Shown here: piece after piece, positions 1 to 36,621 of the stretch
Numbering within the stretch: the first letter of the stretch is position 1
Layout: every line of letters starts with the position of its first letter
Assembly: GCA_029288865.1 (NCBI GenBank)
Contig: JARIGM010000001.1
Span: 1 to 36,740 of the forward strand
Length of the DNA: 36,740 bases
From: Candidatus Kaiserbacteria bacterium
GTDB lineage: Bacteria; Patescibacteriota; Minisyncoccia; Phycocordibacterales; Phycocordibacteraceae
Reading direction: 5' to 3'
Translations under genes and position numbers: made by a program
Notes under the pieces: model-generated
The model's database searches: none
What the model saw: only the letters and a program-made list of their open reading frames with translations
Told to the model about the DNA's origin: nothing

Positions 1-1237
<1,237 letters not shown>

Positions 1238-32577: not shown

Positions 32578-33312
32578 CTAGTGAGATTGGGACTGTCTGA
32601 AGATAAGCGTAATACCGGTGCATGCGTATAGGGTATAACCACGCTCAACCAAGAAGCGATACGTTTCAGAATGAGAAGGATTATTAACGTCGAATGTATG
32701 ATCTTCCACGGCAATCACTTGCGGGGCAAACCGCTGCCAATCATTCGAACGTAGCACCTCGAGGTCATATCCCTCGGTATCGACATTCAGGAAGTCGATA
32801 GGGGTCTCCACCGGAACGTACTCTTCTAATATATCGGCAAGCGGACGAACTGGGATCAGGCTTGTCGGAAGTTCCTTGAGCCAGGAACGTCTACGCGCAT
32901 CAGCTGCAGCGTCAGGGGAGAATGTGTTGAATGCAGGATCAGCGAATTGATAATAGGGGAGCGAAGTTTCGGTGCTCGCTACGCCGAGCACTACGCTCAT
33001 ATCACGTGGACGTGCCCGTTTAAAATAATCAATCGCTTTCGCATAAGGATCGATATTCAGGCCGTGCCAGCCACGCTTATATAAAAGGTACGTATTGGAA
33101 TAGCGGAACGGGTGATTCGCGCCAACATCTACGAAGTAACCCTTTTCCTTTGTGAGAAGCTTTGAACTTACGATATCCTCGCCGGACTGGGAATAATATG
33201 ATTGCCGATAGGAGCCCCAGAGGACATTCTTGAGGTCGACAAGGTCTTGGCGATAGGTAGGCGGAATGGTTTCTAGGATGCGTTCTTTGAGATGGTGAGG
33301 CCAACGGGACAT
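32578..33312 (-). CDS. FkbM family methyltransferase
   Basis: YYSQSGEDIVSSKLL, GYFVDVGANHPFRYSNT, LNIDPYAKAIDYF, DFLNVDTEGYDLEVL. Confidence 0.88.
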   Translation of the reverse strand: MSRWPHHLKERILETIPPTYRQDLVDLKNVLWGSYRQSYYSQSGEDIVSSKLLTKEKGYFVDVGANHPFRYSNTYLLYKRGWHGLNIDPYAKAIDYFKRARPRDMSVVLGVASTETSLPYYQFADPAFNTFSPDAAADARRRSWLKELPTSLIPVRPLADILEEYVPVETPIDFLNVDTEGYDLEVLRSNDWQRFAPQVIAVEDHTFDVNNPSHSETYRFLVERGYTLYACTGITLIFRQSQSH

Positions 33313-33329
33313 ACGGTATAGTGTACCTC
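33313..33329. promoter_or_regulatory. 17-bp divergent leaderless promoter
   Basis: Plus -10 TATAGT (33317-33322) is 7 nt from ATG 33330; minus -10 TACACT (33325-33320) is 7 nt from ATG 33312. Confidence 0.6.
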
Positions 33330-34415
33330 ATGAAGCTTTCTATCATAATCCCATGCTACAACGAGCCGGAAACTATTGCCGATGTCGTCGCACGGGTCGT
33401 GGCGGCGCCTCTGCCTGAAGGATGGGAACGCGAAGTCATTATTGTCGACGACGGTTCGCATAAACAGACGCAAGAGACCGTACGTGCGCTCGCGTCTGGT
33501 GTCGTGCAGAGCGTATTCCGCGAGCAGAACGGCGGCAAGGGTGCCGCCGTGAAAGATGGTTTCCGCAGAGCAACCGGCGATTACGTCGTCATTCAGGACG
33601 CTGATGCAGAATATGATCCAGATGAGTATCACATACTGCTTGAACCGATCATCAAAGGCGAAGCGCGATCAGTGTTCGGGTCCCGTATCGCAGGCCAGAA
33701 CAATGTACCGTTCAGTCATATTTATTTTTACGGCGGTCTGCTTGTCGCGCGTGTATTCAATCTTGTATACGGAACGAAGTTTTCAGATATAACCACCTGC
33801 TACAAGATATTCCCGCGGGAGCTCATACCTTCTCTTCTCGCACAGCAGAGCGATGACTTCGTCTTCGATGCAGTTGAAATGACGCGCGTTATTGCCAGTC
33901 ATGGAAAGGTTATCGAGGTTCCGATTTCGTATAAGGCACGCAGCAGAGAGGAAGGAAAGAAACTGAACTGGATGCATGGTGTTCGTTGTGTCATTGCGAT
34001 TTGTTCTTTACGCGTTGGCATGCAACTTGAGACCGCGTTGTGCATCGGACGATTCTTGGTGTCGGGAGTCTTCGCGGCATTGGTAAACTTGAGTGTGCTG
34101 TACGTATTGGTGGAGTATGCTCGCATGTGGTATCTAGCCGCCGCAGTCATTTCGTTCATCTTTGCATTCGTAGCAAGTTTCCTTGCGAATAAACTTTGGA
34201 CATTCGGAAACCGCACCATGGTGGGTTCCCATCGTCAGTTCGTGCTCCATCTTGCAATCTCACTCGTGAATCTCGGGATTAATACGCTCCTCGTGTATTT
34301 ATTCGTCGACAAGCTTCACGTTTGGTACATTCTCGCTCAGATCTTAGCGACAGCCCTCATTGCGGGAGAAAGTTATTTCGCATTCCGTTGGATCTACCGT
34401 CAAGTAACGGCCTAA
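33330..34415 (+). CDS. DPM1-like GT2 fused to C-terminal GtrA-like membrane domain
   Basis: LSIIIPCYNEPETIADVV, IVDDGS, GKGAAVKDGF, IQDADAEYDPDEY; then GRFLVSGVFAALVNLSVLYVL...SFLANKLWTF GtrA signature. Confidence 0.9.
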   Translation: MKLSIIIPCYNEPETIADVVARVVAAPLPEGWEREVIIVDDGSHKQTQETVRALASGVVQSVFREQNGGKGAAVKDGFRRATGDYVVIQDADAEYDPDEYHILLEPIIKGEARSVFGSRIAGQNNVPFSHIYFYGGLLVARVFNLVYGTKFSDITTCYKIFPRELIPSLLAQQSDDFVFDAVEMTRVIASHGKVIEVPISYKARSREEGKKLNWMHGVRCVIAICSLRVGMQLETALCIGRFLVSGVFAALVNLSVLYVLVEYARMWYLAAAVISFIFAFVASFLANKLWTFGNRTMVGSHRQFVLHLAISLVNLGINTLLVYLFVDKLHVWYILAQILATALIAGESYFAFRWIYRQVTA

Positions 34416-34446: not shown

Positions 34447-36621
34447 ATGGCAGAAAACACCGTAACCCGTATCGTCCGTTGGGGCGTCATAATCGCATTA
34501 TTCGTAATACCTTTTATTCCTGTAATCCCGGGCATCGCCATCGCGAACTCGTTCTTCTTCCCGTTCATCACGGGTAAGAATTTCGCATTCCGTATCCTCG
34601 TAGAGATTGCCTTCGCTGGTTGGGCGCTCCTTGCGGTTGCCGATAAGCGGTATCGCCCGCGATTCTCGTGGCCGGCAGTGCTCTTCGGCACGCTTGTCAT
34701 CTGGATGGCGATCGCTGACGCCTTCGCGGTTAATCCTCATAAGGCATTCTGGAGCAATTATGAACGTATGGACGGATGGGTCACGCTCGTGCACCTGCTC
34801 ATGCTCTTCTGCGCGCTGCAGACTTTCACTGTGATGAAGTTGTGGCGTAACTGGTGGCTCGCATTCGTCGGTGCAGCGACCATCCTTTGCGGATACAGCG
34901 TATTGCAGATCTTCCATGTGCTCGCTATCCATCAGGGAAGTACGCGCGTCGACGCGACGATCGGAAACTCTGCATATCTAGCTGCCTACCTCCTCTTCGC
35001 TTTTGCGCTCACGCTCTGGCTAGCCCTCGATACTAAGAAGGAATACGCATGGCTTCGGTACGTGCTCTTCGGCATATCTATTCTCGAGGTAGTCATCTTG
35101 CTCTACACCGAGACTCGCGGCGCGATCCTTGGCTTCATCGGCGCTGTCTTGCTGGGAGCATTGCTATGGATGGTTGAGTCTGGTGCTCGCGGCCGCAAGT
35201 CTGCTGCCACTTTGTTCATCGGCATGCTCGTGCTCATCGGCGGATTCGTGCTCGTGCGTCACGAGCCATGGGTGCAGAAGCTTCCAGCATTCGGACGTCT
35301 CGCTACCATCTCGCTTTCTGATGGCGAAAGCGCAGCACGCTTCCATATCTGGAACATGGCATACAAGGGCTTCCTTGCTCGCCCTATTACTGGATGGGGT
35401 CAAGAAGGATTCAACTATGTCTTCAATACGTATTACACGCCGAACATGTACGGCCAAGAGCCATGGTTCGATCGTGCTCACGATATCTATCTTGATTGGC
35501 TGATCGCGGGAGGGGCACCTGCATTGCTCCTTTTCCTCGCGCTGCTCGGTGCAACCGTGTATGGCATCTTCAGGAGCCAGATGTCGAAGAAAGAGAAGAT
35601 CTTGCTTATCGGCGCACTCGCAGCGTATGCCTTTCAAGGAATCTTCGTATTCGATAATCTCTTCACGTACATGCCGCTCATCGCCATTCTCGCTATGGTG
35701 CATGGCGCGATCGGAAAGCCCGTAAAGTATCTCGAAGACCTCGGTGAGGTTTCTGAGGATCAGCTTAGTTTGGTCGCGCTTCCAGTTGCGGGGATTGCGC
35801 TCGCCCTCACGCTGTGGATCGTGAACGTGCCCGGCATGCGTGCTGCAACCGATCTCATCACGGCGATCACCCCTTCGCAGGATAGTAACGTGAATCTCGC
35901 TGCGTTCAAGCAGGCGTATGCAGACGGAGGATTCGGAGATCAGGAAATCACGGAGCAACTCATGTCATATGCAGGATCAGTCGCGACAAATCAGAATATC
36001 TCTGCAGCAGACCGTCAAACGTTTGTAGATTATGCCGTGCAGCAGATGCTCGCGCTTACGAAGCGTATTCCGAAGGACGCTCGCATTCATATCGAGTTCG
36101 CATATGGGCTCCGTTCATTCGGCGATTATAAGGACGCACTCGTACAGGTCACTACCGCTGAACAGCTCTCACCGAACAAGCAGAGTCTCTATATCGAAGA
36201 AGGCGTAGAGCAATGGCAGTCAGGTAACATCGCCGCTGCGAACACGGCATTCCAGAAAGCGTATTCTCTCGATACGTCGTTCAGCGCACTTGCGCCGTAT
36301 GTAGCCGCGGGGAAGATCATCTCGGGCGATGTCGCAGGAGGCAAAGCCTTCCTGATGAATTCTCTCGGCACTACTACCGTCGACTCTCAGATTCTCTCGC
36401 TCGCATACTACACAGCGAAAGATTACGCTGATTTCCTCACAGCTGAGAATTATTCCGCCCAGGCAGAATTTAATGTCGCTGCTTCGTATGGAAACGATGG
36501 TAACTTCGCGCAAGCTCGCGCGTGGGTAAACCGTGCGGTAAAGGATCATCCTGAATATACGACACAAGGCGCATCGTTCATCCAGCAGATTAATACGGTC
36601 GCACATCAGAGAGGGCAGTAG
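34447..36621 (+). CDS. O-antigen ligase/polymerase (Wzy/WaaL-like) with C-terminal TPR region
   Basis: Multi-TM; 'PITGWGQEGFNYVFNTYY...PWFDRAHDIYLDWLIAGG' ligase motif; C-terminal TPR-like repeats. Confidence 0.85.
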   Translation: MAENTVTRIVRWGVIIALFVIPFIPVIPGIAIANSFFFPFITGKNFAFRILVEIAFAGWALLAVADKRYRPRFSWPAVLFGTLVIWMAIADAFAVNPHKAFWSNYERMDGWVTLVHLLMLFCALQTFTVMKLWRNWWLAFVGAATILCGYSVLQIFHVLAIHQGSTRVDATIGNSAYLAAYLLFAFALTLWLALDTKKEYAWLRYVLFGISILEVVILLYTETRGAILGFIGAVLLGALLWMVESGARGRKSAATLFIGMLVLIGGFVLVRHEPWVQKLPAFGRLATISLSDGESAARFHIWNMAYKGFLARPITGWGQEGFNYVFNTYYTPNMYGQEPWFDRAHDIYLDWLIAGGAPALLLFLALLGATVYGIFRSQMSKKEKILLIGALAAYAFQGIFVFDNLFTYMPLIAILAMVHGAIGKPVKYLEDLGEVSEDQLSLVALPVAGIALALTLWIVNVPGMRAATDLITAITPSQDSNVNLAAFKQAYADGGFGDQEITEQLMSYAGSVATNQNISAADRQTFVDYAVQQMLALTKRIPKDARIHIEFAYGLRSFGDYKDALVQVTTAEQLSPNKQSLYIEEGVEQWQSGNIAAANTAFQKAYSLDTSFSALAPYVAAGKIISGDVAGGKAFLMNSLGTTTVDSQILSLAYYTAKDYADFLTAENYSAQAEFNVAASYGNDGNFAQARAWVNRAVKDHPEYTTQGASFIQQINTVAHQRGQ

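Follow-up and report, generated by a model that had tools for sequence, protein, structure and literature searches.

A 17-bp spacer between divergent surface-glycan genes of a Candidatus Kaiserbacteria bacterium is a candidate leaderless bidirectional promoter

The window analysed here, a stretch of 36,740 nucleotides from one contig of an 842-kb Candidatus Kaiserbacteria genome (G000), contains two divergent genes whose start codons are only 17 bp apart, and this spacer is likely to be a leaderless bidirectional promoter. The start codons, read on the plus strand as CAT (33310-33312) and ATG (33330-33332), enclose ACGGTATAGTGTACCTC (33313..33329), which is the entire intergenic region and, as judged from sequence and shuffles, the proposed promoter core for both strands. 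A -10-like hexamer of the plus gene, TATAGT (33317..33322, plus strand), and one of the minus gene, TACACT (33320..33325, minus strand), were scored with a PWM. They share 3 bp (33320-33322), and each lies 7 nt before its own ATG. The gap, the overlap and both distances had been given in the initial annotation and were exact when 33310-33332 was re-read. The near-palindromic core of the spacer is TANANTNTA and the longer near-palindrome is TATAGTGTA. From the -10 to start spacing, the predicted transcription starts are the A of the minus-strand ATG at 33312 and the A of the plus-strand ATG at 33330, 18 bp from each other.

The minus-strand gene (32578..33312) encodes an FkbM-type methyltransferase (Pfam PF05050, Methyltransf_21, E 2.4e-21), and the plus-strand gene (33330..34415) encodes a DPM1-like GT2 glycosyltransferase fused to a GtrA membrane domain (PF00535, E 4.7e-30; PF04138, E 4.2e-21). 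Since ATG 33312 is the sole ATG, GTG or TTG in the first 50 codons of the FkbM gene, a start further inside was ruled out. For the plus gene, GTG 33321 is the single in-frame alternative further upstream; it is disfavoured because homologues align from the residues MKLSIIIP. Both start codons on which the 17-bp distance depends therefore hold. The FkbM gene heads a five-gene minus-strand run extending down to 28552, which further comprises genes for a polysaccharide flippase and another FkbM protein, together with two ORFs that gave no Pfam match. On the plus strand, the GT2-GtrA gene is followed by a Wzy/O-antigen ligase-like gene (34447-36621).

The spacer was compared with the other gene starts of the genome, of which 580 kb was read with genes called by a simple home-made hexamer model. 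TANNNT ended 6 nt before the start of 100 genes and 7 nt before the start of 24 among 566-569 genes, against a background of 8.7 per position; at 6 or 7 nt together the count was 124 of 566 genes versus 9 at control positions. Among the 112 divergently placed genes, 25 carried the hexamer at 6 nt and 10 at 7 nt (background 2.2). The same peak was present in every relative sampled. When the leaderless promoters of the clade were aligned, they read TGnTATAAT-N6-ATG, with an extended -10 (TGN) instead of a -35 element, the signal of which was almost nil. This genome context strongly supports the prediction of a leaderless promoter at the spacer, where a -10 element lies 7 nt before ATG without a Shine-Dalgarno (SD) sequence on either side. 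The PWM score of TATAGT (8.7) corresponds to the 50th percentile of the genome's own leaderless set and is reached by 0.02% of genome 9-mers; that of TACACT (6.8) corresponds to the 27th percentile and is reached by 0.13%. Both scores are typical of members of this set. On neither strand is the TGN extension complete (CGG and AGG), and the distance to the start is 7 nt, not the modal 6 nt. In random 17-mers of the same GC content, TANNNT occurred exactly 7 nt out on both strands at a frequency of 1.7e-4, a post hoc figure; both strands had it somewhere within 5-8 nt in 1.2%. Taken in its genome context, the match at the spacer is well beyond chance.

The recurrence of such spacers was evaluated in 2.18 Mb from seven genomes (G000 plus six relatives), grouped into five sets for the analysis. 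In this sample, 21 of 277 divergent pairs, defined by a home-made gene caller, had an ATG-ATG spacing of 14-24 bp, several distances having been examined after the case was seen. TANNNT was found at 5-8 nt on both strands in 10 of these 21 pairs, compared to 0.66 for shuffled spacers, and in 7 pairs (shuffled 0.16) when only 6-7 nt was allowed. Of the longer-spaced pairs, 22/214 had both -10s when the first ATG was used (Fisher P 7e-5 versus the short-spaced pairs) and 40/214 when any ATG was allowed (P 0.004). Half of the ten double -10 pairs had a spacing of 20 bp. Two more minimal pairs were found in G000, at 31545-31570 of contig C9 (L064; also L087) and 12961-12986 of contig C13 (L032). 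Both are arranged as CAT-N6-AGTATACT-N6-ATG with 20-bp spacing, and AGTATACT is a perfect palindromic -10 that reads TATACT on both strands. As a predicted architecture, the minimal two-way spacer is thus a repeated feature of this small-genome lineage. This recurrence, together with the genome-wide -10-at-start signal, backs the earlier description of the site as minimal, nearly symmetric and leaderless on both sides.

A search of 148 genomes from the order gave 23 sites with the palindromic form present in the window, CATN4TANANTNTAN4ATG, compared to 7 for the reversed pattern, 9 at spacing 15 and 12 at spacing 23; this excess is suggestive only. Since ORFs of 80 or more amino acids flanked only 4 of the 23 sites on both sides, the excess does not consist entirely of gene pairs. 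At many of the sites (loci L100-L121) a long gene was present on just one flank, and these may be two-way -10 cores that also make antisense or very short RNAs.

Such one-sided sites would also fit a one-way promoter, in which a single hexamer, more probably TATAGT on the plus strand, drives transcription. The second hexamer would then follow from the near-symmetry of -10 elements, and transcription of the opposite gene would be weak or come from elsewhere. TATAGT does score clearly above TACACT. However, TACACT lies at an enriched distance from the FkbM start, the FkbM gene with its single possible start has no room for another leaderless promoter, and paired -10s in short-spaced pairs exceed chance. 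We therefore consider a one-way promoter unlikely.

Considerably less probable is that both genes have conventional promoters with leaders inside the opposite coding sequences, the spacer hexamers being due to chance. The share of random 17-mers with both hexamers at 5-8 nt given above leaves some room for chance, and on the minus strand the FkbM ATG is preceded by a GAGG at a distance of 13 nt. This GAGG is too distant for a Shine-Dalgarno sequence, however, and the 16S gene lacks CCUCC; the leaderless signature is moreover genome-wide. A sigma-70 scan returned zero sites at the spacer and no convincing site for either gene near it, and classical -35 promoters at the spacer were rejected on this result. 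The hexamers at a 17-bp distance from the two -10 elements are GGTGAG and TTATGA, both poor. The initial annotation placed both -35 regions necessarily inside the opposite coding sequences. Such a requirement is not supported, as the leaderless promoters of the clade have almost no -35 signal, and any -35 of these promoters falls inside the opposite gene by geometry alone. The competition between polymerases that was also proposed is likewise not supported: two polymerases at the spacer would be expected to exclude each other sterically, but in E. coli basal transcription was too low for competition at five of five bidirectional promoters (PMC12825309).

The contig begins inside the 16S rRNA gene (window 1-1237), and zero Rfam matches to 23S were obtained in the window; the rRNA genes may lie in a split operon, or the assembly may have interrupted the operon. 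At the 3' end of the 16S gene (1189..1237, plus strand), GTGGAACATATCCAATTGG is present in place of TGGATCACCTCCTTT and the anti-SD core is absent from the gene sequence. Where an E. coli-like 16S has the latter sequence, the window gene reads TGGAACATATCCAAT, with CATATCC for CACCTCC. We read 23 distinct 16S ends from the relatives set, and CCTCC was found in 0/22 bacterial genes, one eukaryotic-looking end being set aside; in a wider sample of the class it was found in 10/28. The end set aside (L236, G018:C21) belongs to a 16S-family match with the 3' end GGTTTCCGTAGGTGAACCTGCGGAAGGATCATTA that looks like a eukaryotic 18S, probably a contamination of its genome. A displaced anti-SD (ATCACCTCCT-like, at most 1 substitution) was searched for in the window and in 21 other loci, over stretches of up to 1.6 kb following the 16S gene, and none was detected, so an anti-SD hidden downstream by an intron was rejected.

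SD-like motifs near starts were barely raised in G000 (30 vs 19 in the control, of 566) and not above the control in genomes G169 and G024, and conventional SD use was rejected on these counts. Across the class, TGNTATAATN6ATG was common in genomes with and without the anti-SD (47 vs 60 matches, 10 genomes each), and AAGGAG before ATGA persisted in genomes without it (57 vs 12 in the control). A strict one-to-one link between anti-SD loss and motif use is therefore unsupported. Amin et al. (2018; PMC6107228) listed 128 taxa without an anti-SD, mostly Bacteroidetes, Tenericutes and Proteobacteria. We found no report of anti-SD loss in CPR/Parcubacteria in the open literature, which is not proof of novelty.

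It is very improbable that TATAGTGTA, a near-palindrome whose core does sit between divergent genes, is an operator through which a dimeric regulator controls both genes and not simply two -10 boxes, since the core letters are the genome's own -10 motif, the other two G000 pairs have AGTATACT in common and not this core, and no regulator gene was recognised adjoining the spacer.

The bidirectional promoter proposed at the spacer is probably real, as a variant of a type already described. Promoters that are bidirectional through -10 symmetry have been described by Warman et al. (2021), Warman et al. (2026; PMC12825309) and Middlemiss et al. (2023; PMC10268837). As in those of E. coli, -10 hexamers of opposite strands overlap in one core at the spacer. 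In E. coli, a start-site spacing of 18 bp is the commonest, with 10 and 23 bp also preferred (PMC12825309, PMC10268837), and the spacer would match this mode if transcription of each gene begins at the A of its ATG. On the same assumption, each -18T, a base with a role in bidirectional promoters (PMC10268837), would be the complement of the initiating A of the other promoter; the plus-strand T at 33312 is position -18 of the plus promoter. The spacer differs from the standard E. coli class in that its hexamers, located at -13 to -8, interleave by 3 bp as TANANTNTA and do not share TANNNTA; the reciprocal -7T/-11A pairing of the 18-bp class is thus lacking, with an offset of 3. Small shifts in the -10 to start distance are tolerated in bidirectional promoters (PMC12825309). 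While the bidirectional promoters of E. coli and Salmonella often make one RNA that is antisense and non-coding, the spacer is flanked by two genes. Unlike the RNAs of -10 symmetry promoters, both of its RNAs would be leaderless mRNAs, and the promoter would therefore fill the whole intergenic region. Mycobacterial leaderless promoters (PMC4633059) likewise have a -10 placed for a start at the start codon without a Shine-Dalgarno sequence, but at the spacer two such elements are interleaved head to head, in a small-genome bacterium whose 16S gene is without the anti-SD core.

As a working model, RNA polymerase with the housekeeping sigma factor would bind TANANTNTA in either orientation by way of the two interleaved -10 hexamers, with -35 elements contributing little. 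On either strand, the first transcribed nucleotide would be the A of the ATG or its direct neighbour. The two mRNAs would therefore begin at their start codons and would be translated without a Shine-Dalgarno leader. In this way the spacer would supply both of the divergent runs of surface-glycan genes. Should both starts be used, the 17 bp would hold two promoters with neither mRNA having a leader, and hardly any smaller regulatory region between two bacterial genes would be possible. Promoter symmetry would then be tied directly to start-codon spacing, and small genomes could compress divergent operons in this manner. For the order as a whole, we put forward more tentatively that loss of the 16S anti-SD core goes with leaderless initiation, and that -10 symmetry fixes how far apart head-to-head start codons lie (about 17 and 20 bp), so that the whole intergenic DNA is one two-way promoter. 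If mature rRNA confirms that the anti-SD core is missing throughout the order, the few groups known without it would be joined by a large uncultured lineage.

The head-to-head FkbM/DPM1 pair, and with it the spacer, was absent from all loci with FkbM or DPM1 homologues examined in relatives, and a scan of genome contigs gave distant matches only. In one locus from the same bacterial family (L049, 2179-2211), an FkbM homologue is head to head with a flippase gene across AGTATACT. This flippase is 31% identical to that of the window; the ATGs are 27 bp apart, and leaderless spacing is present on the FkbM side only.
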